A stretch of DNA of 64,000 nt, taken from positions 682,001-746,000 of the forward strand of contig NZ_SOEO01000001.1 in NCBI RefSeq assembly GCF_004365655.1. The letters are read 5' to 3'. Positions 3,014 through 24,341 of the stretch are shown here, piece by piece. Below the pieces are notes generated by a model. That model did no database searches, was not told where the DNA came from, and saw nothing but the letters and a program-made list of their open reading frames with translations. Position 1 is the first letter of the stretch. Every line of letters begins with the position of its first letter. A program made the translations under genes and the position numbers. The DNA is from Epilithonimonas xixisoli (GTDB lineage: Bacteria; Bacteroidota; Bacteroidia; Flavobacteriales; Weeksellaceae).

Positions 3014-4759
3014 ATGCTCTACAAATTTCGTTACCTGTTTTACGGATTGTTTCTTTTTGTTTTCGTGATGATGTTTGCGGTGATGTTCATCTCGCTTTCA
3101 GACAAGGGCGATCCCATAGGCTACGGTGCCGACAAAACCGACCTCAACGGTGTTTTCACCCGCTTCGAGGGAAAGATCTACGCCTCGGTGCCGAGCAATG
3201 GTGATTATGAAGTCATAGACGCCGATCCCGCCAGTTTCAAGACCATTCCAGACACTTATGCAGATGCTCACATCGGCTATGACCGCAAGCACGTCTATGC
3301 CGGGAATATGATTTTGGAAGGTTTAGACCCTGCCAAGCTGAGAGTCATTGGTAACAATTATTACACCGATGGCAACACCACTTACTACTGTGCCCGCAAC
3401 TCTGAGAAAAATGAATCTCTCAGCGCCGTCGGCTTTATCATCCGGTTGGGCGCGCAGGGTCTGGGACTTGCGGGCAAACCACAAAATTACTGGTATCCAT
3501 TCAAGAAACTTCCTGATGGCAGGGCATACCGTTCCGGGCAGGGCTTTGCCATCGCCGTCAATGATGAAGTTGCTTTTTTCAAAGGCCAGGAACTGAACGC
3601 TTCCAATCCCAACACCATCCGCCCAATCAAAACCCAGTATTGGGATGGCGATGTGCGGGACAGCGATGCCTATTTCACAGACGGCAAAAATGTCTATTAT
3701 CAGAATGATCAACTGCCATTGAATTATAATGACAAGATCCATCAGCTGGGCATTGAGGGCGATATGCCGTCCCGAAGTGCCTATCTCATCAATCCTCAAA
3801 ACGGAATGGTCTATGTGGATGGGCAAGCGTTTGACGAATCCAAAGCGCCCTACCGACAGTTGGGAATCAATCTGGAACATGCCTACCAAGCCCTATTCGT
3901 GTCCAAAGACGGACTTTATTTCTACGACACCGAAGCTGAAAAAGTGGTGCGGGCAGGCGATAACCCGTTTGCAGACAACCAGTTTAAGGAGCTGGCACCC
4001 GATGTGTGGAGCAGTGGCAACAAAGTTTATTTTTTGAAGGCCACCGAACAGTGGGGCAGAAAGAGCGGTTTGCAGAGCAGAACCACCCACCTCTTGGCGC
4101 TCAAAGGTGTGCAGGCTTCTAGTCTCAGAAAGATCAGCCACCCCGATTCTTACAAAGGCAGTGTTTGGCAGGCTGGTAACCGCTATTTCTATTTTGATGA
4201 CCTCGGCAGTTCCCAGTTGATGCCTACCTCGATTTATGAAATCAAAGATACCAATGCCCTCAAATCTTTGGCGGGTACTGACCCCTTGGGGACAGACGCC
4301 ATCAGAGCGCTTAGCAGAAACAACAAGATCACCGAGGCAGAGGGCGACACCATCCTAAAAGCCGTGACCGACAGCAACAATGAATGGTACAAGTCCTATT
4401 GGATGATCTTCGGTGCGGTGATTCTGGTGTATGCCCTCTCATTTTTATTCCGCAATGTGAAGGTGCATCCATTCCTCATCAAAGACGGTTACCTCATCGT
4501 GAACAATTTGCTTTTTAAAAAATACAAAATAGAAGACATCGAAAAAGTGGTCTTTCGCTCGGTGAAATCCAATCCCAAAGTCGGTGGCTACGGTGGTACG
4601 ATGCGCATTGACCTGAAAAATGGAACATCCAGTCGCAACAGCCTCTTCACCACCCGAATGACCTTTGTTTCCGAAACTGACACGCAGGTCATCACCTACA
4701 TCCGCGAATTGCAAAAGATTTTGAAAGAGGCAGGGATTGAGAGTGAGTTGGCGAATTAG
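3014..4759 (+). CDS. DKNYY-repeat membrane protein
   Basis: A 581-residue protein. A TTG 45 bases upstream extends the frame, but the ATG at 3014 directly precedes a typical membrane anchor (MLYKFRYLFYGLFLFVFVMM), so it is chosen. The extracytoplasmic part contains repeats of the DKNYY type (DRKHVYAGN, DGNTTYYCA, DGKNVYYQN, SKDGLYFYD), a family of unknown function common in Bacteroidota. A second membrane helix near residues 462-482 is followed by a cytoplasmic tail of about 100 residues that looks like a small PH-type beta domain. Its GC content is visibly higher than that of its neighbours. It ends at a strong hairpin shared with the convergent DUF6266 gene. Confidence 0.75.
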   Translation: MLYKFRYLFYGLFLFVFVMMFAVMFISLSDKGDPIGYGADKTDLNGVFTRFEGKIYASVPSNGDYEVIDADPASFKTIPDTYADAHIGYDRKHVYAGNMILEGLDPAKLRVIGNNYYTDGNTTYYCARNSEKNESLSAVGFIIRLGAQGLGLAGKPQNYWYPFKKLPDGRAYRSGQGFAIAVNDEVAFFKGQELNASNPNTIRPIKTQYWDGDVRDSDAYFTDGKNVYYQNDQLPLNYNDKIHQLGIEGDMPSRSAYLINPQNGMVYVDGQAFDESKAPYRQLGINLEHAYQALFVSKDGLYFYDTEAEKVVRAGDNPFADNQFKELAPDVWSSGNKVYFLKATEQWGRKSGLQSRTTHLLALKGVQASSLRKISHPDSYKGSVWQAGNRYFYFDDLGSSQLMPTSIYEIKDTNALKSLAGTDPLGTDAIRALSRNNKITEAEGDTILKAVTDSNNEWYKSYWMIFGAVILVYALSFLFRNVKVHPFLIKDGYLIVNNLLFKKYKIEDIEKVVFRSVKSNPKVGGYGGTMRIDLKNGTSSRNSLFTTRMTFVSETDTQVITYIRELQKILKEAGIESELAN

Positions 4760-6544: not shown

Positions 6545-6802
6545 ATGATATATCAACATAATGGTCTTGCGGTTAATCTTTACAGCCTGAAAGTCATCAG
6601 GATAGAAAAGACAGAAGAAGGTGGTTATCTGGTCTTCGAGTTTGACAACGCCATCATTGCTGTCCTTAAGGATGAAACCGATGAATTGTTGGATGGCTCT
6701 TATCGAAATGAGCCTTTTTCGCAATATTACGAAGATATTGGAGCTTTGGAAGCGGATTTCAAAATCTGGGTTGATGCATGGAATGAAGCTGTTGTCTCTT
6801 AA
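6545..6802 (+). CDS. small protein, tandem paralog A
   Basis: An 85-residue soluble acidic protein without recognised domain. It is clearly homologous to the next gene: both start M-[IV]-Y-x-H-x-GLA-x-NL, continue with an LK-x-I-x-x-EK motif and GGYLVFEF, and share SY-x-N-x-P-x-SQY. The ATG at 6545 is fixed by this alignment. It ends in an aromatic-acidic helix (FKIWVDAWNEA). It lies 48 bases ahead of its paralog on the same strand, upstream of the defence operon. Confidence 0.65.
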   Translation: MIYQHNGLAVNLYSLKVIRIEKTEEGGYLVFEFDNAIIAVLKDETDELLDGSYRNEPFSQYYEDIGALEADFKIWVDAWNEAVVS

Positions 6803-6850
6803 TTCTCCTTAATTTTTCTAATTATCTATTCATTTTTTAAACTTAACGTT

Positions 6851-7207
6851 ATGGTCTATGAACATGGTGGTCTTGCACTCAATCTTTTTAAGCTGAAAGC
6901 TATTAAGATGGAAAAGGATAAGCATGGCGGGTATCTGGTTTTTGAATTTCATAATTTTGTAAGAGAAATCGAAGTGAAGAAGGGCAGTGGGATCTGGGAA
7001 GACCGTTCTTATGAAAATTCGCCCGTCAGCCAGTATTTTGACAACTGGGCAGATCTTGAACTTCATTATCATGAATGGACAGGGCTTTGGTTTGAGTGGA
7101 CGGGCTATATCCAGCGTGGAGACGAAGCTCTGTGGCGAAAACAAAATGGATTTGAAGATGGGTGGTGGGATGAAGCCCAAGAGGAAGAAAGGAAAAAGAG
7201 GCAATAA
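6851..7207 (+). CDS. small protein, tandem paralog B with basic/aromatic tail
   Basis: A 118-residue protein paralogous to the preceding gene over residues 1-75. It carries an additional Trp-rich, charged C-terminal tail (EWTGLWFEWTGYIQ, then a run ending EEERKKRQ). No family recognised; a phage or toxin-immunity type small protein is possible but unsupported. The ATG at 6851 aligns exactly with that of paralog A. The gene ends about 130 bases before the first gene of the defence operon, and a promoter lies between. Confidence 0.65.
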   Translation: MVYEHGGLALNLFKLKAIKMEKDKHGGYLVFEFHNFVREIEVKKGSGIWEDRSYENSPVSQYFDNWADLELHYHEWTGLWFEWTGYIQRGDEALWRKQNGFEDGWWDEAQEEERKKRQ

Positions 7208-7274
7208 CAAAGAATCAAGAGGGAAGAGGCGAGAATCAAGATTACTCTCATTAAATAAAGATTTGTTATTGGAG

Positions 7275-7288
7275 TACGGAAAACCGTA
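7275..7288. promoter_or_regulatory. inverted repeat, candidate operator of the defence operon
   Basis: A perfect 5-bp inverted repeat TACGG-AAAA-CCGTA. It ends 3 bases upstream of the TTG (-33) box of the promoter at 7292-7319, the usual place for an activator site. The regulator is unknown. Confidence 0.5.
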
Positions 7289-7291
7289 TTA

Positions 7292-7319
7292 TTGGGATGT
7301 GGTTTTTTGGCTATATTTG
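7292..7319 (+). promoter_or_regulatory. promoter of the defence operon
   Basis: TTG at 7292-7294, a 17-base spacer and TATATTTG at 7312-7319 match the Bacteroidetes primary sigma consensus (TTG-N17-20-TAnnTTTG). Transcription would start near 7326, giving a leader of about 13 bases before the ATG at 7339. Confidence 0.7.
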
Positions 7320-7338
7320 GAATTGAAAAACTAATAAT

Positions 7339-8334
7339 ATGGCTACACAACGATTTTTAGATATCCTTGAAGATATTAATAAAAATGATTCTCAATATGA
7401 AATGACTCCTAAGGAACTTTTAAATTATTTTAATTGTGAGAAAAGAACAAGTGGTAATACTTGGTATATCAATAGTTTTTTGGATAAGAATAATTTAGAA
7501 GTAATACCACATTACGAAGATGTATATTTGTACTCAACGGTTGTGCTCAAACATAAGGTAAAGGCAAGAATTCATAAAGATGATAAAAATCTAAAGAATT
7601 ATGATCCTGTCAATAGAATCAGTTTTTTACCTTCAGCTAATACTAAACCTTTGATAATAAAACGAGATGCTGATTTATCTGAAGCTATAACAGTAATGAT
7701 GATAAATGATTACTCTCAATTGCCTGTAATGAATAATGATAGAGATATTGATGGAATGTTAACATGGAAATCAATTGGCGAAGCATTAATTCATAAGCAG
7801 AATGGAAAAACGGTGAAAGACTTTATGTCCAAGAATTATGAAGTCATTGAATATGATAAACCTTTATTTGAAGCAATAAAAAAAGTGATTGAAAGTGAGG
7901 TTGTAATTATAAGAAATAATGAAAAATGTATATGTGGCATTGTAACCGCAACAGATATTAATCAGCATTATTTAAAATTGACAGAACCATTTTTATTATT
8001 AAAAGAAATTGAAAATCATATAAGAATTATTTTAGATGGTAAGTTTACCTTAGATGAACTTCGAAAATTTGCAAGCTCTCCTGATAATAACACAGATATA
8101 AATTCTATTTCAGATTTGACTTTTGGAGAATATACAAGAATAATTGAGAATCCTACAAAATGGGAAAAATTAAAACTTAAAATTGATAGAACTACTTTTG
8201 CAAAAAGATTACACGAAGTAAGAGGTATAAGAAATAATGTTATGCATTTTCACCCAGATGGTATAACTGAAAATGAAGAAAGAACTTTAAGAGACACCGC
8301 CTTATTTTTTAAAAGAATAAGCGAATTATCATAA
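7339..8334 (+). CDS. CBS-domain protein with C-terminal HEPN (Swt1-like) RNase motif
   Basis: A 331-residue protein. Residues 1-75 form an unassigned N-terminal domain. Residues about 100-210 form a pair of CBS motifs (AITVMMINDYSQLPVM, then GIVTATDINQHYL), which in other proteins bind adenine nucleotides. Residues 215-331 are helical and contain LKEIENHIR and, at 298-303, RNNVMH, an exact RNxxxH motif of HEPN ribonucleases; the arrangement resembles the Swt1-type HEPN group. This suggests a nucleotide-sensing RNase. It is the first gene of the operon, 17 bases before hsdM, directly behind the promoter. The enzymatic role is inferred from the motif; an annotation as plain CBS protein would also be fair. 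Confidence 0.75.
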   Translation: MATQRFLDILEDINKNDSQYEMTPKELLNYFNCEKRTSGNTWYINSFLDKNNLEVIPHYEDVYLYSTVVLKHKVKARIHKDDKNLKNYDPVNRISFLPSANTKPLIIKRDADLSEAITVMMINDYSQLPVMNNDRDIDGMLTWKSIGEALIHKQNGKTVKDFMSKNYEVIEYDKPLFEAIKKVIESEVVIIRNNEKCICGIVTATDINQHYLKLTEPFLLLKEIENHIRIILDGKFTLDELRKFASSPDNNTDINSISDLTFGEYTRIIENPTKWEKLKLKIDRTTFAKRLHEVRGIRNNVMHFHPDGITENEERTLRDTALFFKRISELS

Positions 8335-8351
8335 TTAATTAAAAATATTAA

Positions 8352-9860
8352 ATGGCAAAAACCGATAACAGTACTTTTGAACAAAAACTGTTTAAAGCCG
8401 CAGACAAATTGCGTAAGAATATAGATGCAGCAGAATACAAGCACGTTGTATTGGGGCTTATCTTTCTAAAATATATTTCAGAATCTTTTACCGAGTTACA
8501 CGACAAATTGAGAGCGGACGAATATTCCGATCCCGAAGATCGAGACGAATATATTGCTGCTAATATTTTCTTTGTTCCAAAAGAAGCTCGATGGAGTCAC
8601 ATCCACGCCAATGCTAAGTTGCCAAATGTAGGACAAACTATTGATGAGGCAATGGACGCCATAGAGCGTGAAAATAAAGAATTAAAAAACGTCTTGCCAC
8701 AGGTGTATGGAAAAGCCAATCTTGACAAAACATCTCTAGGCGAATTGATTGACTTGATTTCTAATACTGAGTTGCAGGCAGAAAACCAAAAGTCAAAAGA
8801 TCTTTTTGGTAGAGTCTACGAATATTTCTTAGGAGAATTTGCCAATGCTGAAGGTAAAAAAGGCGGACAGTTCTATACCCCAAAATCAATTGTTAAATTG
8901 ATGGTAGAAATGATAGAACCTTACAAAGGCAGAGTCTACGATCCGGCAAGTGGCAGTGGTGGAATGTTTGTAATGAGTGAGAAGTTTGTTACAGAACATC
9001 GTGGGAATATTCAGGATATTACTGTTTATGGGCAGGAAAGTAACCAAACAACTTGGAAGCTATCTAAAATGAACTTGGCGATACGCAACATCAACTCTAA
9101 GTTTGTAGCTTGGAATACAGAAGGAACTTTCCTGAAAGATGTACACCCAGATTTGAAAGCCGACTTTATTCTTGCCAACCCACCTTTTAACCAAAGTGAG
9201 TGGGGTGTAAATATCTTGCAGGAAGATGGTCGTTGGAAATATGGTGTACCTCCAAGCGGGAATGCCAACTACGGTTGGTTGCAACATATGCTGTATCACC
9301 TATCGCCTCGTGGCGTAATGGCAACTGTGTTATCTAACGGTTCGCTTAGCAGTAATACTTCTGGCGAAGGCGAGATTAGAAAAAACCTGATTACCAATGA
9401 TTTGGTAGAATGTATTGTAGCGCTCCCAAAGCAACTGTTTTACAACACAGGCATACCCGCTTGTATATGGATTATGCGTCGTGAGAAAACTCAACATCAC
9501 AGAGAAGTATTGTTTATTGATGCCAGTGAAATGGGCTTTATGAAAGACCGTGTGCACCGTGATTTGGCAGATGAGGATATTGACTTAATTACAGAAACTT
9601 ACCATAATTGGCGCAAAGGTGAAAATTATGAAAACAGAAAGGGCTTCTGCATGAGTGCTACGCTTGACGAAATAGAAAAGCACAGCCACGTATTGACCCC
9701 AGGGCGATATGTAGGCATTACTGATGTAGAAGATGATGGTGTTTTGTTTGCCGACAAAATGCAGGAATTAACCACTACGCTTAAGGAACAAATGGACAAA
9801 GAAGTGCAACTGAATGATGAGATTGCAAAACAGTTGGCTAAAATTGGGTTTGCATTATGA
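8352..9860 (+). CDS. hsdM: type I restriction-modification system methyltransferase subunit HsdM
   Basis: A 502-residue N6-adenine DNA methyltransferase. The N-terminal helical HsdM domain (about 8-140) is followed by the catalytic domain with the S-adenosylmethionine-binding motif DPASGSGGMF (197-206) and the catalytic NPPF motif (276-279). Length and motif order are normal for HsdM. It methylates the target chosen by HsdS, and with HsdS alone forms the protective methylase. The last codons overlap hsdS by four bases (ATGA), so the two are translationally coupled. All key residues are present. Confidence 0.96.
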   Translation: MAKTDNSTFEQKLFKAADKLRKNIDAAEYKHVVLGLIFLKYISESFTELHDKLRADEYSDPEDRDEYIAANIFFVPKEARWSHIHANAKLPNVGQTIDEAMDAIERENKELKNVLPQVYGKANLDKTSLGELIDLISNTELQAENQKSKDLFGRVYEYFLGEFANAEGKKGGQFYTPKSIVKLMVEMIEPYKGRVYDPASGSGGMFVMSEKFVTEHRGNIQDITVYGQESNQTTWKLSKMNLAIRNINSKFVAWNTEGTFLKDVHPDLKADFILANPPFNQSEWGVNILQEDGRWKYGVPPSGNANYGWLQHMLYHLSPRGVMATVLSNGSLSSNTSGEGEIRKNLITNDLVECIVALPKQLFYNTGIPACIWIMRREKTQHHREVLFIDASEMGFMKDRVHRDLADEDIDLITETYHNWRKGENYENRKGFCMSATLDEIEKHSHVLTPGRYVGITDVEDDGVLFADKMQELTTTLKEQMDKEVQLNDEIAKQLAKIGFAL

Positions 9861-11053
9861 TGGAAGTGAAAAAGATACCGGAAGGTTGGATAGAGACTAC
9901 TTTAGGTAATGTAATTAATATTTCAAGTGGAAAATCAAGACCTAAGAAACAAGGTTTGTTTCCTGTATATGGAGGAAATGGTATTTTAGATTATGCCGAT
10001 AGTTACAATTATGAAAATGCAACAGTAATTGTTGGTAGAGTTGGTGCTTATTGTGGGTGTGTTTATTATGAAGAGAATAAATTTTGGCTTTCAGATAATG
10101 CGTTAGGAATAAAATCAAATGAAAATTCTGAAATTAGATTTCTTTATTATTTTTTATTAAATGAAAATTTAAATAGAATTGCTATTGGAGGAGCGCAACC
10201 ACTGTTAACACAAGGGCTTTTAAATCAAATTGAAATAATAGTTCCTTCTGATATAAAAGAACAAAAATCCATCGCCCAAATCCTTACTTCTTTTGATGAT
10301 AAAATAGAATTGCTACAAGCACAAAACAAAACTCTTGAAGCTTTGGCGCAAACGGTTTTTAAAGAATGGTTTGGGAAATATCAGGTTGGGGATGAGTTGC
10401 CTGAAGGGTGGAAAACTGCAAAGATAAATGATTTTATAGAAATTTCATTAGGAGGAGACTACGGCAAGGAAGATATTGAGGATGAATTTGACCAAAAAAC
10501 ACTTTGTTTAAGAGGAACCGATTTACCAGATATGAAAATGGGAACTCCTGAAAAAGCACCTATCAGATTTTTAAAAAAATCAAAATTGGAAAAATGCAAG
10601 CTTATCAATGGAGATATTGTAATAGAAATTAGTGGCGGAACAGAAAATCAATCTACAGGCAGAGTAATGTATATCAACGATATCATTATTCAAAACTCAA
10701 AATTACCAATGACTTGTGTCAATTTTTGCAGAATAATTAGACCAAGTAAGATTGAATATACTTATTTTTTGTATTCTCTTTTTGACAATTTATACAATAG
10801 AAGAATTTTCTTTAATTGGGAAAATGGTACTACAGGTATAAAAAATCTAAATCTTAATGCGTTTCTTAATGGTTTCGAATTAATTATTCCTGCAGATAAA
10901 AATAAAATCATAAAATTTGATGAGTTGGTTAAAAGTAAATTTGTTAAAATACAAACTAATAACATTCAGATACAAACCCTCACAAAAACCCGTGATGAAT
11001 TATTGCCAAAACTGATGAGTGGTGAGATAAGACTTGAAGAATTTAAAAACTAA
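9857..11053 (+). CDS. hsdS: type I restriction-modification system specificity subunit HsdS
   Basis: A 398-residue specificity subunit. Two target recognition domains (about 5-130 and 185-350) alternate with two conserved coiled-coil spacers: one around residues 137-178 (QKSIAQILTSFDDKIELL) and a C-terminal one (TRDELLPKLMSGEIRLEEF). Each recognition domain reads one half of a bipartite target. The ATG at 9857 lies within the hsdM stop. No inverted repeats or second hsdS are seen that would point to specificity switching. Product assignment is firm; the target sequence cannot be predicted. Confidence 0.95.
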   Translation: MMEVKKIPEGWIETTLGNVINISSGKSRPKKQGLFPVYGGNGILDYADSYNYENATVIVGRVGAYCGCVYYEENKFWLSDNALGIKSNENSEIRFLYYFLLNENLNRIAIGGAQPLLTQGLLNQIEIIVPSDIKEQKSIAQILTSFDDKIELLQAQNKTLEALAQTVFKEWFGKYQVGDELPEGWKTAKINDFIEISLGGDYGKEDIEDEFDQKTLCLRGTDLPDMKMGTPEKAPIRFLKKSKLEKCKLINGDIVIEISGGTENQSTGRVMYINDIIIQNSKLPMTCVNFCRIIRPSKIEYTYFLYSLFDNLYNRRIFFNWENGTTGIKNLNLNAFLNGFELIIPADKNKIIKFDELVKSKFVKIQTNNIQIQTLTKTRDELLPKLMSGEIRLEEFKN

Positions 11054-11056
11054 AGT

Positions 11057-12058
11057 ATGAAAGAGAAAGTAATCTTTGATACAAACACAATTAGAAATAC
11101 TGATATTAATAACTTTTTTGGAGGCAGAAAAGAGTTAGAGCAATTTGAAAATGATGCAGATATCATTGTTCCATACACAGTGATAGAAGAAATAAAAAGA
11201 CAGAAAAAAGTAATTTTAAAAAGTAAAAAAGATAGTTTCTTATCTAATCCGCTTCATAGGATTATGGGAATAGATGAAGACAATACGAAAGCCTTTGATG
11301 TAGAAGCCTATATTAAAAAATTAGAAGATGATGAAACAATAGTATTTGAAGTTATAGATTTAAAGGCTAATGATGTTTTACCACAAATAAAAGAATTAGC
11401 ATTGCTAAAAAAACCACCATTTGTAGAAGCTGATGATAGTGATAAAGGTTTTAAAGATGCATTGATTTATTTTTCAGTATTAGAATATGTTCAAGAAATA
11501 CCAAATAAATATGTATTTGTTTGTACAAAGGATAACTTATTAAAAAGAGCATTTCTAGCGCACTCAAATATTGTTGTTGTTGAATCTTACACAGAATTTA
11601 AAGAGCATAGTGTTTCGCAGTTTTTTGACGATTACTTTATTCAAAAAGTAAATGCAGAACTTGGAGTTGAAATATCTAAAGAAAATATTAAAGAATATTG
11701 GTACAACATTAACGACAACAAAGTAGTACTTGTTGGATTAGAGGAACAAGAGTATGTCATAGAAACGGATTCGGGAGAAATTATCAGCACTTGTAATCGC
11801 AGTCAATTTCAAATTAACACTCTTATCAACTCTTCGAGTTTTAGGATGACACATCGGAGTATAAATGAACTTGAAAATTACACACATTTTTTGTCTAATG
11901 ATGAAGTCAAAATAATTCTTGAGGCATCGTATAGTAACCAAGAAATTAGACTAATAATAAATGATAGTGATGTAAAAGAATTTTTAGCTAGTTTGTATAA
12001 TACAAATATGATTGAGGATAATGATGCAAAAAACTTTTTGAAAGAAATATTCGAGTAG
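11057..12058 (+). CDS. PIN-domain protein, putative ribonuclease
   Basis: A 333-residue protein. Its first ~185 residues are a PIN-like nuclease domain, with the metal-binding acidic residues visible as D8 (IFDTNTIRN), E44, D134 (GFKDALIYF) and D159 (CTKDN). This fits the large PIN group (DUF4935-type) rather than small VapC toxins. The C-terminal ~150 residues are unassigned and could be sensor or partner-binding. It starts 3 bases after the hsdS stop, so it is translated with the restriction-modification genes, and no antitoxin gene sits next to it. A role as an RNase effector in defence is inferred from context. Confidence 0.75.
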   Translation: MKEKVIFDTNTIRNTDINNFFGGRKELEQFENDADIIVPYTVIEEIKRQKKVILKSKKDSFLSNPLHRIMGIDEDNTKAFDVEAYIKKLEDDETIVFEVIDLKANDVLPQIKELALLKKPPFVEADDSDKGFKDALIYFSVLEYVQEIPNKYVFVCTKDNLLKRAFLAHSNIVVVESYTEFKEHSVSQFFDDYFIQKVNAELGVEISKENIKEYWYNINDNKVVLVGLEEQEYVIETDSGEIISTCNRSQFQINTLINSSSFRMTHRSINELENYTHFLSNDEVKIILEASYSNQEIRLIINDSDVKEFLASLYNTNMIEDNDAKNFLKEIFE

Positions 12059-12091
12059 TGGAAAATTAACAAGTAAGAAATAAAGGTGACT

Positions 12092-12682
12092 ATGAGAAAA
12101 ATCGGATTGTTTTTTTTATCAATGTGGTTGTTTTTTGCATTAACAATAATCATAACTGGTCATATACCGCTTTACTATAAAAGTGATTGGGCATTTATTG
12201 GTTGGGAGGAATTACTATGCAAAAACATTATACCATTACTTTGTCTGGCAGGTATTCTAATTGGTATTTATTCCTATTTTGATTTTAGATTTTCTTTAAA
12301 AGACGCAACTAATATGCCTTTTACCATAAAGAAAATTGAAGGTATTAATTATGAGCATCTCACATTTCTAACAACTTATATTGTTCCTTTAGTCTGCTTT
12401 AATTTTGATAACACAAGGTATCAAATTGTTCTTTTGTTTTTATTAATTGTCATTTGTGCAATATACGTGAAGACAGATCTTTTCTATGCCAACCCAACCC
12501 TAGCATTGTTAGGATTCAAAATTTATAAGATAGATGGAAATTTTGAAGATGGCGCAAGAGAAGGAATAATATTAATCAGTAAAGAAAACTTATCAAAGGA
12601 TATACGATGTGATTATATAAAACTTGACGAAAGAATATATTATGCTAAAATAAAACAAAATGACCAGAACACAACTAATTAA
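12092..12682 (+). CDS. kwaA: Kiwa anti-phage protein KwaA, membrane subunit
   Basis: A 196-residue membrane protein with four predicted helices (about 4-25, 42-60, 88-103 and 108-127) and a cytoplasmic tail that starts KTDLFYANPTLALLGFKIYK, as in KwaA proteins. A GTG six bases upstream is possible, but the ATG at 12092 has AAGG at a suitable distance and begins with the expected MRKIGLFFL. In Kiwa, KwaA forms a membrane complex that senses phage attack and recruits KwaB. The identification rests mainly on the adjoining kwaB, whose start lies 23 bases inside this gene, together with size and topology. Confidence 0.78.
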   Translation: MRKIGLFFLSMWLFFALTIIITGHIPLYYKSDWAFIGWEELLCKNIIPLLCLAGILIGIYSYFDFRFSLKDATNMPFTIKKIEGINYEHLTFLTTYIVPLVCFNFDNTRYQIVLLFLLIVICAIYVKTDLFYANPTLALLGFKIYKIDGNFEDGAREGIILISKENLSKDIRCDYIKLDERIYYAKIKQNDQNTTN

Positions 12683-13637
12683 CTCTTTAAACACTGTATT
12701 AAACCAGGGCAATCAACTTTCTACTGTTGTATTTGCTGTGATGAAAGAATCATTTGAAATTAAAAAATTAAACATTGATAATAATGAAATCTCTACCATT
12801 CAAGAAATGTTCCTCCGAAGTATAAGAGAAAAAATTATTAATGTTGAAGAGCAAACAATCATAAAAGTTTCAGAAGCTGACAATAGAGCAAATACTGTTT
12901 TTCATTATGATCTTGATTTACCTACAGGATTGGACTTCTACAGCTCACCACTAACCGATGGTATTGCTAATTTTTCTTTTGCAAATGATGATTTGGGAAA
13001 AATAGATTCATTAATTATAAAGATTGGTACAGAAACAAATCAAATCAAAATTTTCAAAAAACTGTCACCTGTTGAGGTATTAGGTAGAGGTGGTTTTTTA
13101 CTTAGAAAAGCCCGTACTCAACTAGAAAGATTCACTGAGAAAATTTTAAATCTGACACCAAGTTTTAATGCTGTTTTTGTTGGGGATACGTATATTTTTC
13201 TTGATCTGAAACTTTTGGAAAACAGCTACGGTTTTCACGATGTTATTGTGAGGGAAGCTAATAATAGTGTTCAACTTATACAAGCATTACAGATTTTAAC
13301 TACAACAGAAGGAATCGTAGAGCTATTGGGAAAAACTAGCTTCGCCAGAAAAGTAGTTAAAATAAAGAATTCACCAGTAATTCTTAAACAAATACCTAAC
13401 GCTCAAATTATTACCTTTACCCAACGTCATCCATCATTAGCTAATAAGATGAGGTATAGTGATGATGGCACACAAATAATTTTACATACTAAAAAATCGA
13501 GAGAACTTTTTATAAAGATGCTTGATGATGCTTATTTGACATCAGAGCTTACAGAGCAATACTACGAAAGTTCTGCTAAAGATGTCGTAGAAGGAGAAGA
13601 AGATGCAAGTAATAATCAAGAAGAAACTCAGAATTAA
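12660..13637 (+). CDS. kwaB: Kiwa anti-phage protein KwaB (DUF4868)
   Basis: A 325-residue soluble protein of the DUF4868 family, the cytoplasmic partner of Kiwa. The family region covers about residues 85-305 and includes VEVLGRGGFLLRKARTQLE and a conserved region around FVGDTYIFLDLKLLE; the last 25 residues are acidic and probably disordered. KwaB is reported to bind DNA and act with membrane-bound KwaA during phage infection. The ATG at 12660 overlaps kwaA by 23 bases, so the two are coupled. It is followed after 17 bases by the DUF262 restriction gene. Confidence 0.8.
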   Translation: MTRTQLINSLNTVLNQGNQLSTVVFAVMKESFEIKKLNIDNNEISTIQEMFLRSIREKIINVEEQTIIKVSEADNRANTVFHYDLDLPTGLDFYSSPLTDGIANFSFANDDLGKIDSLIIKIGTETNQIKIFKKLSPVEVLGRGGFLLRKARTQLERFTEKILNLTPSFNAVFVGDTYIFLDLKLLENSYGFHDVIVREANNSVQLIQALQILTTTEGIVELLGKTSFARKVVKIKNSPVILKQIPNAQIITFTQRHPSLANKMRYSDDGTQIILHTKKSRELFIKMLDDAYLTSELTEQYYESSAKDVVEGEEDASNNQEETQN

Positions 13638-13654
13638 TAATCATAAAAACTAAT

Positions 13655-15442
13655 ATGGCAATAGAAGTAACAGGTAAGCAAATAGCAAGCGATAAAATAA
13701 CAATAAAAGATGTTTTTGGTGAGGATATGTGGTTTACAATACCAGATTATCAAAGACCTTACGTTTGGGGAGAAGATCAGATAAGTACATTATTGGATGA
13801 TGTTTCACACGCTGCTGTTAATACTCCTGAAAGTCAATACTTTTTAGGTTCTTTGGTTCTACACTGCCAGCCAAAGTCATTAAATGGTACTGTTTATCAG
13901 GAAAACAGTGTTTTGGACGGGCAACAAAGACTGACTACTTTGTATATTCTGCAAGCAGTTATCAGAGATATTACAACGGTTGAAAAAAGAAAAAAAACTT
14001 GTGCTGAAGCTATTTTTCAAGAAGGAGATCCTGATGATGGAATCCCAGAACGCTTGAGAATTGAGTTTGCTATCCGTAAAGAAGTTGAAGTTTTTATAAA
14101 CAACTACATCAAAAAAAATGGTGGAACACAACAGTCTAATGAATTACAAGCGTTGGCGAGTAATTCTGATAATGTTTCTATCAGAAATATGGCAAATGCT
14201 ATCCTTATTATTTCGAAATGGTTTGCTAATGATGATAATTTGGATATTGATACTTTGTTTCCCTATCTGCGTCAATATGTCATCTTAGTATATGTTGCAA
14301 GTAGTGAATTGGAAGATGCTTTTCGTCTATTTACAGTTTTAAATGATAGAGGAATTAAATTAAGAAACAGTGACATTTTAAAGGCGCAAAATCTTAAAGA
14401 AGTTAGCACAGAACAAAAGCAAAGTGAATATGCAAAATATTGGGAAGAGCTTGAAGGCGAATTAGGAGAGGATTTTGACTTGTTTCTTTCCTATATCAGA
14501 ACAATATTAGTAAAAGAAAAAGCAAGACATAATCTTTTAAAAGAATTTGAAGATAATATTTATAATCCTACCAAATTTAATTACAGTACTAAAAAACAAG
14601 AAAGTGCGACTCCACTTCTAAAAAAGGGTGATGAAACTTTTGATTTGATTAAAGCCTATAAAGTTCACTACGATTCAGTCTTTAGCGGGAATAATTATCA
14701 CATCAACAACAATTGGGCTTTTGATAATCTGATAAGTGTGTTGAATGATACTGCATTATCCGATATTTGGATTCCACCATTATTGGTTTATCGCCATCAT
14801 TTTGGAGATTATAAAATCTTTGATTTTTTAAAATTATTAGACAACAAGTTTTCTGGTGATTGGATTGGAAGAGAAACACCCACTACAAGAATTGAAGCAA
14901 TGAATACAATAATTAAAAAAATTGAAGAGTATTCAAAAAAAGAAGAACTAAGTAAAGATCAAAAATTGATTCAATTGTTTTCAGACAATGCTTTCATATT
15001 TAATTCTGCATTCTTCTTGTCAGACTTAGATGAAAGTTCAATCTATGGACGAAGATTTGCCCGTTACAAATTAAGAAAAGTTGACTTTTTATTAGATGCT
15101 CCATTATATTCAGAAAAACGCAATTCCTATAATGAAATGACTGTTGAGCATATTCTTCCACAAAATCCGCAAGAAGGAAGCCAATGGACAAAAGACTTTG
15201 CACAAGAGGAAAGAGAAGAATGGACACATAAATTAGGTAATTTGGTTCTTATCAGCCGTAGAAAAAATTCAGGACAAGGTAGATTAGATTTTACGGATAA
15301 AAAAATAAAGTATTTTACATCCAGCATAGAGTCTTTCCCTAATTCATTAAGAATAATGCTGAAACCGCAATGGACAATGACTGAGTTGAAAGCTAATCAT
15401 AACGATTTGATTGATAAAATTAAATTACACTATAATATATAA
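13655..15442 (+). CDS. single-chain GmrSD-like type IV restriction enzyme (DUF262-DUF1524)
   Basis: A 595-residue protein joining both halves of GmrSD. The N-terminal DUF262 domain shows DYQRPYVWGEDQ (31-42) and DGQQRLT (88-94), the NTP-binding/ParB-like motifs of GmrS. The C-terminal DUF1524 domain shows VEHILPQ near residue 497 and LGNLVLISRRKN near 530, the His-Me/HNH nuclease part of GmrD. Such enzymes cut phage DNA carrying modified, for example glucosylated, cytosines, which type I enzymes cannot cut. It ends 3 bases before hsdR. The substrate is inferred from the family. Confidence 0.85.
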   Translation: MAIEVTGKQIASDKITIKDVFGEDMWFTIPDYQRPYVWGEDQISTLLDDVSHAAVNTPESQYFLGSLVLHCQPKSLNGTVYQENSVLDGQQRLTTLYILQAVIRDITTVEKRKKTCAEAIFQEGDPDDGIPERLRIEFAIRKEVEVFINNYIKKNGGTQQSNELQALASNSDNVSIRNMANAILIISKWFANDDNLDIDTLFPYLRQYVILVYVASSELEDAFRLFTVLNDRGIKLRNSDILKAQNLKEVSTEQKQSEYAKYWEELEGELGEDFDLFLSYIRTILVKEKARHNLLKEFEDNIYNPTKFNYSTKKQESATPLLKKGDETFDLIKAYKVHYDSVFSGNNYHINNNWAFDNLISVLNDTALSDIWIPPLLVYRHHFGDYKIFDFLKLLDNKFSGDWIGRETPTTRIEAMNTIIKKIEEYSKKEELSKDQKLIQLFSDNAFIFNSAFFLSDLDESSIYGRRFARYKLRKVDFLLDAPLYSEKRNSYNEMTVEHILPQNPQEGSQWTKDFAQEEREEWTHKLGNLVLISRRKNSGQGRLDFTDKKIKYFTSSIESFPNSLRIMLKPQWTMTELKANHNDLIDKIKLHYNI

Positions 15443-15445
15443 AGT

Positions 15446-18400
15446 ATGTTATCGGAAAATACCATCGAACAATCACTTGTTGAACAACTCGTATCCCAAG
15501 GTTATACCTATCATTTCGGACCATCGATAGCGCCTTACAGCGACAACCCTCAGAGAGAAAATTTTAGTTCGGTTATTTTGGAAAGTCATTTTAAAGAATC
15601 TTTAAAACGACTAAATCCAACTTTGCCAGAATCGGCAAGAGCTGAAGCTTTTCAAAAAGTTATCAATTTAGGTACAGAAGATATTATGGAAAACAATGAA
15701 CGTTTTCATACTTATATTACTGATGGTGTCACTATTGAATACAACAAAGACGGCAACACAATTGGCATTCCAGTGACTTTGTTGGATGTTGAAAAACCTG
15801 AGAATAATAGTTTTTGGGTTGTCAATCAATTGGTTGTTAAGGAAAGTAATAGTGAGAAACGTTTCGATGTTGTTATCTACATCAACGGTTTACCATTAGT
15901 TTTTATAGAACTTAAAAACGCTACTGACGATAAAGCTACCTTACAAAAAGCTTATCAACAGATACAGAATTATAAAAAAGCAGTGCCAACTGTTTTTTAT
16001 TATAATTCGCTTTGTATTATTTCTGATGGTATTGATGCAAAAACCTCAAGTGTTTCGGCACCACTTTCAAGATATCTTGCGTGGAAAGCACCAAAAGAGG
16101 CAGATACTGCAGTACAGACAGATTTACAGATTCTAACAGAATATATGTTAGACAAGAAAACATTGGTAGAGTTGATTCGTTATTGCACCGTTTTTGAAAA
16201 AGAAGAAAAGAAAGATTCTGAGACAGGACTAATCTCACAGGTTAAAATAAAGAAAGTTGGGGCTTATCATCAGTATTATGCGGTTCAAAAAGCCGTAACA
16301 GAAACCATCAGAGCAACGCATTCTACAGATGGGGATAGAAAAGTAGGTGTGGTTTGGCATACACAAGGTAGTGGAAAATCACTTTCTATGGTCTTTTACA
16401 GCGGTCAAATTATTACGCATCCCCAGATGGAAAATCCGACCATTGTCATCTTAACCGACCGTAATGATCTTGACGACCAATTGTTTAGTACTTTTGGTAA
16501 CTGCGTAGGATTATTGCGTCAAAAGCCGGTGCAAGCAGAAAATAGAGAACATATTAAAGAGCTTTTGAAAGTTTCTGGCGGTGGTGTTATTTTTACGACC
16601 ATTCAAAAGTTTTCTCCAGAAAGCGGGAATGTTTATGATACATTATCTGAAAGAACCAATATTGTGGTAGTTGCTGATGAAGCCCACCGAAGCCAATATG
16701 GTTTTACAGGTAGAGAAGTAGAGACAGAAGAAGGTTCGGAGATAAGATACGGAAACGCAAAATATTTGCGTGATGCATTGCCAAATGCTTCTTACATTGG
16801 TTTTACAGGAACACCCATTGAAAAAGAAGATAAATCTACACCAGCAGTTTTCGGAAATTATATTGATGTTTATGACATCAAACAAGCTGTAGATGATGGA
16901 GCAACAGTTCCTATCAGCTATGAATCTCGTCTAGTTAAAATAAAATTGGATGGGGAAATAGCAGCCACTATTGATGCAGAGATTAATGCCATTTCAGATG
17001 TTACAGAAGAACAGCTAGAAAAGGCTAAAAAGAAAACAACCACCATTGACGCGGTTGTTGGGCAAAAAGACCGATTACAGGATATAGCAAAGGATATTGT
17101 TTTTCATTTTGAAGAAAAGCAGAAAGTAATTGAAGGCAAAGCAATGATTGTCTGTATGACACGTACAATCTGTGCAAAGCTGTATGATGAACTCATTAGT
17201 TTACGACCAGATTGGCATCATACTGATCTTGATAAAGGAAAGCTGAAAGTGATTATGACCAGTTCATCAGATGACGATGCTTTGCTCCAACCACATCATA
17301 CCACTAAAAAACAGAGAAAAGAATTAGCGATAAGAATGAAGGACGCTAATGATGAATTGCAAATCGTTATCGTACGAGATATGTGGCTTACAGGTTTTGA
17401 TGCACCGAGTATGAATACAATGTACATTGATAAAAAAATGCAAGGTGCAAATCTGATGCAGGCTATTGCAAGAGTGAACAGGGTTTACAAAGAAAAACCA
17501 GGTGGATTGATTGTAGATTATATAGGGATTGGACAAGACTTGCGAAACGCAATGGCAGTTTATTTACAGAGCGGAGGTGAAGGCAAGCCTATCTTAGATA
17601 TTAGTGAAGCCATAGCAGGAATGGTGGAAAAGTTTGAAATCATAGAGCAAATGTTTAATGGATATGATTTTAGAAAATATTTTTCATCTGAAACGGCTCA
17701 GAAATTACAAGTACTCTTAGGTGCACAAAACTTTATTTTGTCAACCGAAACTTTAAAAGATCGATTTTTAAAAGAAGTAACCTTACTATCAAGATTGTTT
17801 GCTTTGTCAATTCCAAGTAAAGAAGCAGAAATGATTAAAGATGGAGTTGCCTTTTTTCAAGCAGTAAAATCGAGAATTAATAAATTTTCAAATAACGGAG
17901 TAAAATCTGATTATGAAGTAGAAACAGCAATAAAACAAATTGTAGACAAAGCTTTATCAAGTGATGGCGTAATTGATATTTTTGAAGCAGCAGGCATAAA
18001 AGCTCCATCTGTCAGTATTTTATCGGATGAATTTTTGTTGGAAGTGAAAAATATGCAACAAAAAAATCTTGCGTTTGAATTACTCAAAAAATTATTAAGT
18101 GACGAAGTAAAAGTTCGTAAAACGAAAAATCTAGCTCAAGCTAAAAAGTTCTCTGAAATGCTGGAATCTGTAGTTACAAGGTATCACAACAATCAAATAG
18201 ATTCTGCTCAAGTATTACAGGAATTATCTGAGATTGCAAAGGAAATGCGCTTGGATGATAAAAAATCGGCTGAGTTGGGATTAAGCCCAGAAGAATATGC
18301 ATTTTACAGTGTACTTAAAGAAAACGATTCAACGACATTTTTAGCTGATGATAAAATGAAAGAATTAATTCATACGATTGTAGACGTTGTTAGAAAAAAT

Positions 18401-18565
18401 GCTACAGTGGACTGGAGTAAGAGAGACGATGTGAGAGCACAGCTAAGATTGACTGTTAAAAAGATTTTAATACGTTATGGTTATCCTCCAGATGTAGCAA
18501 AAATGGAAGCAGATAGGGTTCTTGCTCAGAGTGAGTCTCTTGCTAATGTTTTTTCTAAAGAATAA
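15446..18565 (+). CDS. hsdR: type I restriction-modification system restriction subunit HsdR
   Basis: A 1039-residue motor-nuclease. The N-terminal PD-(D/E)xK nuclease has D141 and E155-L-K157. The helicase motor shows Walker A HTQGSGKS (305-312), the DEAH box (411-414), the GFTGTPI motif and, in the second RecA domain, VRDMWLTGFDAPSMNT. The C-terminal helical region binds the methylase. Length and motifs are complete, so the enzyme should be active. It translocates DNA from unmethylated sites and cuts at a distance. In this operon it is separated from hsdS by four unrelated defence genes. Confidence 0.95.
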   Translation: MLSENTIEQSLVEQLVSQGYTYHFGPSIAPYSDNPQRENFSSVILESHFKESLKRLNPTLPESARAEAFQKVINLGTEDIMENNERFHTYITDGVTIEYNKDGNTIGIPVTLLDVEKPENNSFWVVNQLVVKESNSEKRFDVVIYINGLPLVFIELKNATDDKATLQKAYQQIQNYKKAVPTVFYYNSLCIISDGIDAKTSSVSAPLSRYLAWKAPKEADTAVQTDLQILTEYMLDKKTLVELIRYCTVFEKEEKKDSETGLISQVKIKKVGAYHQYYAVQKAVTETIRATHSTDGDRKVGVVWHTQGSGKSLSMVFYSGQIITHPQMENPTIVILTDRNDLDDQLFSTFGNCVGLLRQKPVQAENREHIKELLKVSGGGVIFTTIQKFSPESGNVYDTLSERTNIVVVADEAHRSQYGFTGREVETEEGSEIRYGNAKYLRDALPNASYIGFTGTPIEKEDKSTPAVFGNYIDVYDIKQAVDDGATVPISYESRLVKIKLDGEIAATIDAEINAISDVTEEQLEKAKKKTTTIDAVVGQKDRLQDIAKDIVFHFEEKQKVIEGKAMIVCMTRTICAKLYDELISLRPDWHHTDLDKGKLKVIMTSSSDDDALLQPHHTTKKQRKELAIRMKDANDELQIVIVRDMWLTGFDAPSMNTMYIDKKMQGANLMQAIARVNRVYKEKPGGLIVDYIGIGQDLRNAMAVYLQSGGEGKPILDISEAIAGMVEKFEIIEQMFNGYDFRKYFSSETAQKLQVLLGAQNFILSTETLKDRFLKEVTLLSRLFALSIPSKEAEMIKDGVAFFQAVKSRINKFSNNGVKSDYEVETAIKQIVDKALSSDGVIDIFEAAGIKAPSVSILSDEFLLEVKNMQQKNLAFELLKKLLSDEVKVRKTKNLAQAKKFSEMLESVVTRYHNNQIDSAQVLQELSEIAKEMRLDDKKSAELGLSPEEYAFYSVLKENDSTTFLADDKMKELIHTIVDVVRKNATVDWSKRDDVRAQLRLTVKKILIRYGYPPDVAKMEADRVLAQSESLANVFSKE

Positions 18566-18573
18566 AATGATTT

Positions 18574-18870
18574 ATGAAAAAAACTAATATTACCGAAATT
18601 ACTTTTTCTCAATTTTTATCTGATGTAGAATCTCTGGCAGAATTTAACAGTATAACAGGAAGAAATTATAGAGTATTATTTTTAGAAGATGAGATTCTTC
18701 ATTTTGTAAGAATGTCTAGTGATAAGAATTGGAAAATGGATCTAAGAAAAGTTTATCAAGCTTATCAAGAATTATCTGATTTTAAAGTTGCAAATTTCAA
18801 AAACTATTTACCTCGAACACAATCTCCTGCATTAGGTTTGCTTATATCATTAAATCTGATAATTAATTAA
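18574..18870 (+). CDS. small protein at the end of the defence operon, unknown
   Basis: A 98-residue soluble protein (YRVLFLEDEILHFVRMSSDKNW in the middle, followed by a helical segment, KVYQAYQEL). No family recognised. It begins 8 bases after hsdR and its TAA shares one base with the ATG of the LytTR regulator (TAATG), so it links the operon to the regulator. Its AT-rich codon use is like hsdR, unlike the regulator. Reading-frame integrity and spacing support a real gene; it could be an accessory or anti-restriction control protein, but nothing in the sequence proves this. Confidence 0.6.
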   Translation: MKKTNITEITFSQFLSDVESLAEFNSITGRNYRVLFLEDEILHFVRMSSDKNWKMDLRKVYQAYQELSDFKVANFKNYLPRTQSPALGLLISLNLIIN

Positions 18871-19619: not shown

Positions 19620-19653
19620 CCGCTTTTGGTGCTCCATAAAAAGCTTTTGTTCC

Positions 19654-19691
19654 TGCGCTTCCGATGTTGTTTTCGGAAGCGCATTTTTTTT
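19654..19691 (+). terminator. terminator after the LytTR regulator
   Basis: An 11-bp perfect stem (19654-19664 with 19673-19683) followed by eight T. It lies 34 bases after the regulator's stop and marks the end of the transcript that starts near 7326. Confidence 0.85.
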
Positions 19692-19802: not shown

Positions 19803-20012
19803 ATGAGTAATTCAAAATCTGATTTAGACAACCATTCAAATCAATTAAATCCTAACAATGATTCTTATTGGCAATCAAGAGGTCTGGATGAAAGGCCAGA
19901 TGATTGGGATGACAATGATTCAAATTCTAACAATTCCAATTATGATAATTCCGATGATTATTGGGATGATGATGCATATGAACCTTTCGGAGATTCGGGT
20001 GATTATGATTGA
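19803..20012 (+). CDS. Asn/Asp-rich low-complexity small protein
   Basis: A 69-residue, very acidic, probably disordered protein. It starts with a segment containing NQLNPNNDSYWQSRG and DERPDDW and continues with Asn/Asp/Ser runs. The conserved-looking N-terminal half, with the LNPNN motif shared by the micro-protein at 20169, argues for a real gene; the motif type is seen in small hypothetical proteins of Flavobacteriia. It is preceded by three tandem AATTAAAAAA-like units. Function unknown. Confidence 0.6.
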   Translation: MSNSKSDLDNHSNQLNPNNDSYWQSRGLDERPDDWDDNDSNSNNSNYDNSDDYWDDDAYEPFGDSGDYD

Positions 20013-20168
20013 TGAAGTTCTTATACTAATAAAATGGAATTTAGGAATATAGTAAGCTTATTTTGAGTGTAGATGTCGAACTCAATTACAATTATCAGAA
20101 TTTTATAAATAGGAAAGGACTTTACAACTGGAAATAGTAACCATTATTAACCAATTAAAATAAAAACA

Positions 20169-20306
20169 ATGAAAAACAAAATCACACCTGCGCAGAACCA
20201 GGCAAACATTCAGAACTCAAACAGGGGAACATCTGGAACCAACAGACAGTATGACCAGAACCAAGGTAACCGGGGCAAACAGCTGAACCCTAATAACAAA
20301 AAATAA
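20169..20306 (+). CDS. 45-residue Asn/Gln-rich micro-protein
   Basis: The ATG at 20169 opens a 45-codon frame rich in N, Q, G and K, ending GNRGKQLNPNNKK. It shares the LNPNN motif with the gene at 19803 and, unlike it, is basic. A strong terminator follows the stop by 12 bases, which supports an expressed gene. Probably disordered; function unknown. Confidence 0.5.
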   Translation: MKNKITPAQNQANIQNSNRGTSGTNRQYDQNQGNRGKQLNPNNKK

Positions 20307-20953: not shown

Positions 20954-21502
20954 ATGTCAAAGAAAATTGCAATATTAGCCACCCACGGCTTCGAAGAAAG
21001 CGAATTGAGTTCTCCCAAAGAACATTTGGAACAGCAAGGCTGGACAGCACATATTGTCAGCCCTCAGGACGGCAGCATCAAGTCTTGGTCTGGAAAAGAC
21101 TGGGGCAAAGAATACCAAGTAGATGTGACGCTGGATGAAGTGTCGGCAAGCGACTATGATGCGCTGGTGTTGCCAGGCGGTGTTATCAATCCCGATAAAC
21201 TGAGGATCAACCACGCTGCTTTGTCGTTCGTACAGGATTTTTTCAAACAACACAAGCCTGTGGCTGCCATTTGTCACGGTCCTCAAATCCTCATCAGTGC
21301 AGGTGCTACGGAAGGCAGAAAGATGACTTCGGTAGAATCCATCAGTATCGACCTGCAAAACGCGGGCGCCATATGGGAAGACAGTGAAGTAGTGGTGGAC
21401 AATGGCCTGGTGACAAGTCGAACACCAGAAGATTTGCCAGCTTTCAATGCCAAATTGGTAGAGGAAATCAACGAAGGAAAACACGAAGATCAGAATCTGT
21501 AA
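20954..21502 (+). CDS. DJ-1/PfpI family protein (type 1 glutamine amidotransferase-like)
   Basis: A 182-residue protein of the PfpI/YhbO group. The nucleophile elbow AICHGP places the catalytic cysteine at C107 with H108 next to it, and an acidic residue in EESELSSP (around E15-E18) completes the site. Members are stress proteins with deglycase, chaperone or protease-like activity reported. Length is typical. Monocistronic, with a terminator directly downstream. Confidence 0.9.
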   Translation: MSKKIAILATHGFEESELSSPKEHLEQQGWTAHIVSPQDGSIKSWSGKDWGKEYQVDVTLDEVSASDYDALVLPGGVINPDKLRINHAALSFVQDFFKQHKPVAAICHGPQILISAGATEGRKMTSVESISIDLQNAGAIWEDSEVVVDNGLVTSRTPEDLPAFNAKLVEEINEGKHEDQNL

Positions 21503-24256: not shown

Positions 24257-24341
24257 GGAGAAATGGCAGAGTGGTCGATTGCGATAGTCTTGAAAACTAT
24301 TGACTGTAACAGGTCCGGGGGTTCGAATCCCTCTTTCTCCG
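24257..24341 (+). tRNA. tRNA-Ser (anticodon TGA)
   Basis: An 85-base class II tRNA. The acceptor stem pairs GGAGAAA (24257-24263) with TTTCTCC (24334-24340), discriminator G at 24341. The anticodon loop CTTGAAA holds TGA at 24291-24293, the variable arm is extended as expected for serine, and the T-loop is TTCGAAT. CCA is not encoded. It reads UCA and other UCN codons. Confidence 0.95.

Follow-up and report, generated by a model that had tools for sequence, protein, structure and literature searches.

Genes embedded between hsdS and hsdR, which encode the specificity and restriction subunits of type I restriction-modification enzymes, have already been published (PMC4619093, PMC11411939, PMC12255303), and a preprint, known to us from papers that cite it, generalises such embedding. 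TgvAB, a DUF262/DUF1524 system of the GmrSD family found in a type I operon of Vibrio cholerae, protects against phages with hypermodified DNA (PMC11411939). The authors of a study on an island of enteropathogenic Escherichia coli (EPEC) call the hsdS-hsdR site a potential recombination hotspot (PMC12255303). The Kiwa protein KwaA is a membrane sensor of infection, its partner KwaB binds DNA but does not cut it, and a membrane supercomplex of the two binds phage DNA (PMC12904381). DS-11, from DefensePredictor, is a HEPN protein validated in E. coli, for which gating by an adenine derivative is proposed (PMC13092281). The locus described here, from Epilithonimonas xixisoli, brings relatives of these systems together around one type I restriction-modification frame. 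It lies in a window of 64,000 nucleotides, the whole stretch of DNA that was analysed (C1:682001-746000, in a genome of 3.39 Mb and 11 contigs).

We read it as a composite defence operon that arose through two levels of exchange, and put the probability of this reading at roughly 0.78. At the first level, an hsdM-hsdS...hsdR frame would hold a slot in its hsdS-hsdR gap, and the slot and the recognition domains of hsdS would be replaced jointly or in parts; in the window, genes for PIN, Kiwa and GmrSD fill it. At the second level, whole restriction operons would be exchanged behind a conserved promoter at one chromosomal site, in some genomes under a 3' cap made of a LytTR response regulator, direct repeats and a terminator. 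A preliminary description of this DNA had proposed the type I frame as a carrier of four other defence modules, with Kiwa and GmrSD directed at phages able to evade type I restriction; it left out the response regulator and the second level of exchange.

The named genes of that description are indeed all open and on one strand, from 7339 to 18565, and their families exceed curated cut-offs. Families were assigned with Pfam, PADLOC and NCBIfam, and activities are predicted by homology:

7339..8334, + strand: DS-11-type CBS-HEPN anti-phage protein, 331 amino acids (NF053863, 397 bits against a cut-off of 260, E 3.9e-119)
8352..9860, + strand: hsdM, type I DNA methyltransferase, 502 amino acids (PF02384, over cut-off, and PF12161; motifs NPPF and DPASGSG)
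9857..11053, + strand: hsdS, specificity subunit, 398 amino acids (PF01420 over cut-off; two Methylase_S stretches)
11057..12058, + strand: PIN-domain protein, 333 amino acids, cargo (PF16289 over cut-off)
12092..12682, + strand: kwaA, Kiwa membrane protein, 196 amino acids, cargo (NF041622, 237 bits against a cut-off of 100; alternative start GTG at 12086)
12660..13637, + strand: kwaB, Kiwa DUF4868 protein, 325 amino acids, cargo (NF041623, 346 bits against a cut-off of 200)
13655..15442, + strand: GmrSD-type (DUF262-DUF1524) type IV restriction enzyme, 595 amino acids, cargo (PF03235 and PF07510 over cut-off)
15446..18565, + strand: hsdR, type I restriction subunit, 1039 amino acids (TIGR00348, 575 bits against a cut-off of 285)

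Three of the four modules, PIN, Kiwa and GmrSD, thus stand in the hsdS-hsdR gap, while DS-11, counted earlier as inside the frame, precedes hsdM and lies outside it. Type I enzymes typically show NPPF in HsdM and ExK, GxGKS and DEAH in HsdR. The window's HsdR carries GSGKS, DEAH and ELK and matches the EcoR124I HsdR (4be7, E 9e-30); with hsdM, hsdS and hsdR all present and these motifs in HsdM and HsdR, the frame is assigned to type I restriction-modification. KwaA and KwaB, adjacent and both above their curated cut-offs, identify Kiwa, and KwaB matches a solved KwaB structure (9o0i, E 1.2e-23). The HEPN signature Rx4-6H appears in DS-11 as R-x4-H at residue 298. HxLPxN is a His-Me type stretch, found in the GmrSD protein as HILPQN. 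The same protein has QR, DGQQR and FTVLN, corresponding to the DUF262 motifs QR, DGQQR and FxxxN (PMC11411939). The PIN protein is probably a nuclease, to judge by its family. Its C-terminal part matches PADLOC PDC-S34 (E 2.9e-9) over profile positions 302-374 of 384 only, short of the whole profile, and we file it as a PIN protein only.

The cargo was compared across relatives with HsdR as the query, which gave 72 loci, one genome per species, with flanks of at most 10 kb per side (identifiers such as L055 denote fetched comparison loci; G386 and G487 are genomes). L115, L124 and L125, with HsdR below 50% identity, were removed; in the 69 retained loci HsdR is 63-86% identical to the window's over the best segment, and the window makes 70. 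In 21 of these hsdM, hsdS and hsdR are not all readable in order, owing to contig edges, frameshifts and, in L094 and L099, stop codons that are probably recoded, and they are not counted. The 49 readable loci are the window and 48 relatives; the HsdR-tree analysis and the pair and G+C analyses used 48 loci each, 42 with cargo. Cargo genes have at least 100 amino acids, hsdR fragments being excluded. Open reading frames and clusters are mechanical calls made in the analysis, and cargo families were scanned through one member per cluster for a subset of the clusters.

The slot holds at least one such gene in 43 of the 49 readable loci, with 34 different contents, the empty slot counting as one of them; five loci have no extra gene at all. 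At least 38 changes of cargo set are required on the HsdR tree. Among 30 pairs whose HsdR proteins are at least 92% identical, 24 have no cargo in common, five share it partly and a single pair has the same set. Of the sister loci L085 and L117 (HsdM 97%, HsdR 98%, HsdS 40%), one is without cargo and the other has an ApeA-HEPN gene; L078 and L109 (HsdM 98%, HsdR 98%, HsdS 38%) carry unlike cargo. Cargo thus differs even at 98% HsdR identity, and the specificity subunit differs alongside. This comparison of hsdM-hsdS-x-hsdR loci, with its 34 sets and its 24 of 30 close pairs, supports the type I frame as a carrier, fixed while its cargo is exchanged, and excludes an ancestral and invariant gene order.

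It also contradicts a fixed multi-protein machine inherited as one unit. Such a machine would explain the tight spacing and the overlaps of the window's genes, and why KwaAB, PIN and GmrSD occur together again in L059 and L096. The order there is KwaA-KwaB-PIN-GmrSD, unlike the window's PIN-KwaA-KwaB-GmrSD; further loci have PIN without the others or GmrSD without Kiwa, and 34 sets in 49 loci leave this explanation extremely improbable.

Genes foreign to the frame, co-directional with it and differing among relatives, fill the hsdS-hsdR gap, as expected of embedded defence. The families recognised among them are PIN, GmrSD, KwaAB, McrBC (L055), RhuM (PDC-S05), AAA_14-DUF4143 (PDC-S01), PDDEXK_3, PDDEXK_4, DUF3800 with PDC-M04B, ApeA-like HEPN, OLD-like ATPase, Mrr, NYN and deaminase; further cargo proteins are Y1_Tnp-type, DUF3307 or without any match. 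All 86 extra genes between hsdM and hsdR in the 49 loci point the same way as the frame, and the window's gene arrangement is therefore more than chance. Filled slots recur in other frame groups, for which 20 regions were picked from HsdR matches in 197 family genomes (12 from the nearer group, 8 from the group at 33%): 10 of 11 readable chosen loci with HsdR of about 50% identity and 6 of 6 with about 33% have cargo. In the plasmid and phage collections the HsdR relatives are all below 60% identity.

The diversity of the cargo could also arise by passive accumulation, in a defence hotspot where insertion into the hsdS-hsdR gap is harmless and the modules have no common expression or functional link. 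Some cargo has no clear defence role (DUF3307 in L089, a Y1_Tnp-type cluster in four loci), and several copies of Kiwa lie outside hsd operons. An accumulation of this kind is at odds with 86 of 86 co-directional genes at mostly short gaps, with one promoter segment kept before five different operons (see below), and with the fact that nuclease, restriction or PADLOC candidate families account for most of the recurrent cargo clusters scanned. Altogether, we consider it improbable.

Two side observations concern the frame itself. A protein of 60-70 amino acids with the look of a small helix-turn-helix protein ends 0-2 bases before hsdM in L061, L066, L074, L077, L095 and L106. The HsdR of L040 and L042, with open frames of 1254 and 1228 amino acids, is longer by roughly 190-215 residues, which follow about residue 291.

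For the composite operon, the most likely route of exchange would be homologous recombination between conserved stretches of hsdM, midway along hsdS and at its 3' end, and where hsdR begins. DNA alignments of 13 pairs show identity mostly lost within 60 bases of the hsdS start, regained for about 115-235 bases within hsdS and for 60-120 bases at its 3' end, absent over differing cargo, and back no more than about 40 bases from where hsdR starts. Where cargo is common (L059/L096, L038/L042, L054/L057) the DNA is alike across it; L054 and L057 share part of hsdS along with the cargo, in longer blocks of identity. Between the window and L054 or L097, identity returns about 40 bases 5' of gmrSD, and in the window's clade the right-hand recombination point would accordingly lie at the start of that gene. 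An orphan hsdR 5' fragment of 222 bases between two cargo genes of L064 (8195-8440) is probably a scar of cargo exchange.

Composition and trees also speak for exchange of the cargo. Its G+C content is below that of hsdM and hsdR in 41 of the 42 cargo-bearing loci. For six loci of one HsdR clade a single history of PIN and HsdR is rejected (approximately unbiased test, p 0.00044): L055 and L057 have HsdR proteins 95% identical and PIN proteins 49% identical, and the L055 PIN groups with those of Pseudomonadota and Campylobacterota.

Kiwa stands in the hsdS-hsdR gap of the window, L059, L096, L044 and the excluded locus L115, and the KwaB of L044 is 29-31% identical to those of the window, L059 and L096. 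Across 395 genomes of the phylum, KwaB exceeds its cut-off in four, the window's included, and in two of the four it lies in an hsd operon, directly before or near hsdR: the window and G487 (L169), where the search recognised no hsdS. Nine weaker matches include L177, which follows hsdM-hsdS, L174, beside an hsd operon, and one in a 1379-residue frame (G386). Kiwa as a typical hsd gene was dropped on these counts, two of four over the cut-off and one clear case, L177, among the weaker matches. Kiwa has probably entered type I operons repeatedly. A literature search, with preprints and most subscription papers outside its scope, found no Kiwa embedded in a type I operon, as far as titles and the openings of abstracts show. 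The nearest plasmid-borne KwaB relatives, 36.5% identical, are on the Emticicia oligotrophica plasmids NC_018742.1 and NC_018749.1, with kwaA annotated alongside.

For DS-11, the window's copy alone exceeds the cut-off in the 395 phylum genomes, and none was seen in other frame loci. A single copy permits no inference on DS-11 as a general hsd neighbour.

The flanks of these genes lead to the second level of exchange, and to the following features:

6545..7207, + strand: two small genes, 85 and 118 amino acids, 5' of the promoter segment; relatives of the 85-residue protein are encoded just before hsdM in L187 and L228
7272..7334, + strand: conserved segment, putative promoter; inverted repeat ACGG-AAAA-CCGT, TTG at 7292 and TATATTTG at 7312-7319
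18574..18870, + strand: 98-residue protein; a relative at 53% identity is downstream of a different hsdR in L194
18870..19619, + strand: LytTR response regulator, last gene of the unit (PF04397 over cut-off), with no adjoining kinase gene
19621..19655, + strand: direct repeats of 14 bases, period 21, beginning one base past the regulator's stop; proposed site of the regulator
19654..19683, + strand: strong predicted intrinsic terminator, 11 pairs followed by a T run; a like sequence follows homologous regulators

The locus had been taken to end at 18870. It extends further, since the regulator gene overlaps the 98-residue gene by one base and runs to 19619, before the terminator at 19654-19683. 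In gene order, DS-11 and hsdM are separated by 17 bases, hsdM and hsdS overlap by 4, and gaps of 3 and 33 bases precede PIN and KwaA; KwaA and KwaB overlap by 23, and gaps of 17, 3 and 8 bases precede GmrSD, hsdR and the 98-residue gene. No gap within the unit exceeds 33 bases. The 85- and 118-residue genes may represent an older portion at the island's 5' end.

Homologues of window 3014-4759 and 20954-21502 bracket the island within about 23 kb on one contig in 8 of 23 genomes of the genus (window included). Restriction operons of different make occupy the site in five of the eight: the window, L187, L188, L189 and L193, the make of the last three being known from blastp only. That of L187 reads hsdM-hsdS-AAA15-GmrSD-hsdR-McrB-McrC-regulator. 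L190 and L191 hold a conserved pair of genes (654 and 210 amino acids), also present in L193, and no restriction operon was seen in them; L192 has the regulator with viperin. A segment like 7272-7334 precedes the operon in all five restriction-operon genomes, where it outscores each of 10 shuffles; in the remaining three genomes the score falls among those of the shuffles. It is 85.7% identical to the window's in L187, before another composite operon, and in L188 about 360 bases separate it from the first long gene; short matches also precede the operons of L224 and L228, from other genera.

This conservation changes the standing of the one clear promoter claimed earlier. Its motif, TTG-N17-TATATTTG at 7292-7319, is not callable by itself, since the window has 80 copies of TANNTTTG against 79.5 expected by chance, and sigma-70 promoter-like matches are at chance as well (59 against 58.6); both the Bacteroidota -7 and the sigma-70 scans were dropped as promoter evidence. 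A promoter at 7292-7319 is supported because 7272-7334 is conserved before other operons. On the + strand no terminator is predicted between 7310 and 19428. Joint expression, which the preliminary description had proposed, has indirect backing from the conserved segment and this predicted layout; the unit would be transcribed as one.

Two other potential marks of the site were set aside. Direct repeats at the island ends (6221 and 19682; 20 bases, 85%) are short and possible by chance, and the sole tRNA gene of the window, at 24257, lies outside the island.

Of the 197 family genomes, 17 encode a homologue of the response regulator at 63-100% identity; the 395 phylum genomes add one more, at 49%. 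A restriction or defence operon ends at most 60 bases upstream of the regulator gene, on the same strand, in 13 of these 18: the window (through the 98-residue gene), L187, L193, L201, L221-L225, L227-L229 and L233. In L223 the gene nearest the regulator has no PADLOC match, and the operon holds type IIG-like and helicase genes. Seven regulators lie directly upstream of a prokaryotic viperin gene (L192, L222, L225, L226, L229, L230, L231). In all, 17 of 18 stand beside a defence gene or operon or viperin, as a raw count; the exception is L220, whose contig ends 435 bases upstream of the regulator. The Response_reg match of the window's protein is below the cut-off. Receiver domains typically have an acidic pair, an Asp and a Lys, and LEDN, DLD and TKP are present.

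LytTR proteins bind direct repeats with a period of about 21 bases. Repeats with the consensus CGCTTTTATTCCTC begin 0-3 bases past the regulator's stop in 16 of 17 genomes and 19 bases past it in L230, with a period in the first search of 21 in 15 of 17, 20 in L230 and 24 in L231. Leave-one-out scoring places all 17 above each of 300 resamples, L231 being the weakest and L226 and L230 preferring a period of 20. In the held-out L233 the repeats are at offset 1 with period 21, and none of 2000 resamples reaches their score. Twelve fetched loci that lie at the site or close to it and lack the regulator gave no match scoring above 16. The regulator would probably tune expression of its own unit or of the next gene. 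Among the matches listed in a literature search, titles and the openings of abstracts showed no pairing of LytTR with viperin, restriction-modification or defence islands.

Past the terminator, at 19803-20306 and in the same place in L187, L220, L221, L223 and L227, there is a conserved leader, AAATGCGG.ATCCGAAAAGCA. Short conserved peptides are encoded downstream of the regulator in these six loci, one of about 45 residues and rich in Asn and Gln.

It is possible that the site as a whole is an expression platform. Restriction operons, exchanged whole, would sit between a fixed promoter/operator and a LytTR regulator that has a repeat site of its own, an inner slot would swap modules such as Kiwa, and the regulator would represent a new family of Bacteroidota defence regulators, linking restriction operons to an antiviral gene, such as viperin, that comes next. 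We offer this tentatively, with the odds somewhat against it.

Several observations weigh against exchange at two levels or against the joint working of its parts. The slot is not the sole location of extra genes, for the hsdM-hsdS interval holds some in 6 of the 49 loci. GmrSD is 80-89% identical among the six clade loci that carry it, similar to HsdR, and its gene may have descended together with hsdR instead of being exchanged freely. The window's clade may have had Kiwa for long, since L059 and L096 carry it too, in another order, and several Kiwa pairs elsewhere have no adjoining hsd genes. Internal promoters may exist, although promoter-like matches inside the operon are at chance level. 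Of the five restriction operons found at the site, those of L188 and L189 lack the regulator and the other three have it. Its repeats lie 3' of its gene and before the next one (viperin in seven cases), so that the target could be the unit itself or the following gene. Conservation of promoter and cap could reflect common descent at a hotspot, not function.

The products of the composite operon most likely act in layers, as their homologues suggest. HsdMSR would cut DNA without the self mark, and GmrSD would cut modified DNA beyond its reach. KwaAB would sense infection at the membrane and bind incoming DNA. DS-11 and the PIN nuclease would serve as a fallback once the other layers fail, DS-11 probably acting on RNA.

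Alternatively, the nucleases might guard the type I enzyme, phage inhibition of HsdM or HsdR triggering PIN or DS-11 as T4 Stp triggers PrrC. The nuclease PrrC, whose gene lies within a type I locus, acts in this way (PMC12707154), and PIN recurs in 13 of 48 frames of this family. That the slot accepts unrelated mechanisms, that PIN and HsdR have no common history across loci, and that TgvAB in its type I locus kept its protection pattern with HsdR mutated (PMC11411939) all make such guarding unlikely here.

Single genes in type I operons, a known curiosity, thus become part of a measurable exchange process, and position alone yields a list of candidate antiviral genes. If promoter and cap are functional, a genome could acquire a new restriction operon and at once express it under regulation, with a regulator linked to restriction systems and viperins of which the searchable literature gave no description. 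As far as our searches reach, the turnover measured in one frame, the repeated capture of Kiwa and the proposed platform with promoter and regulator are new.

Compared with described systems, the locus resembles TgvAB in having a DUF262/DUF1524 type IV enzyme within a type I operon, for which complementarity against modified and unmodified phages was proposed (PMC11411939); it differs in its single-protein GmrSD, accompanied by Kiwa, PIN and DS-11, and in the several modules exchanged in one frame. Like the EPEC island RptR-RMS-DarTG2-M48, it has defence genes between hsdS and hsdR and a regulator gene in the unit (PMC12255303), but the island encodes a small repressor first, the window a LytTR regulator last, and the cargo is unrelated. 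EcoprrI-PrrC (PMC12707154) and Campylobacter RloF (PMC4619093) likewise place an accessory gene within a type I locus, RloF being a DUF262 protein in the hsdS-hsdR gap; both are single accessory genes, in contrast to the window's mixed set with Kiwa. DS-11 is a one-protein CBS and HEPN system (PMC13092281), and the window's copy, over the NF053863 cut-off, differs in being the first gene before a type I frame and is known here from its sequence. The window's KwaA and KwaB exceed the equivalog cut-offs of Kiwa, but the pair sits inside a type I restriction operon, a coupling that the accessible part of PMC12904381 does not describe. Finally, the WYL regulators of the BrxR kind are also a family that co-occurs with diverse defence systems (PMC9122601), whereas the regulator that closes this unit is of the LytTR family.

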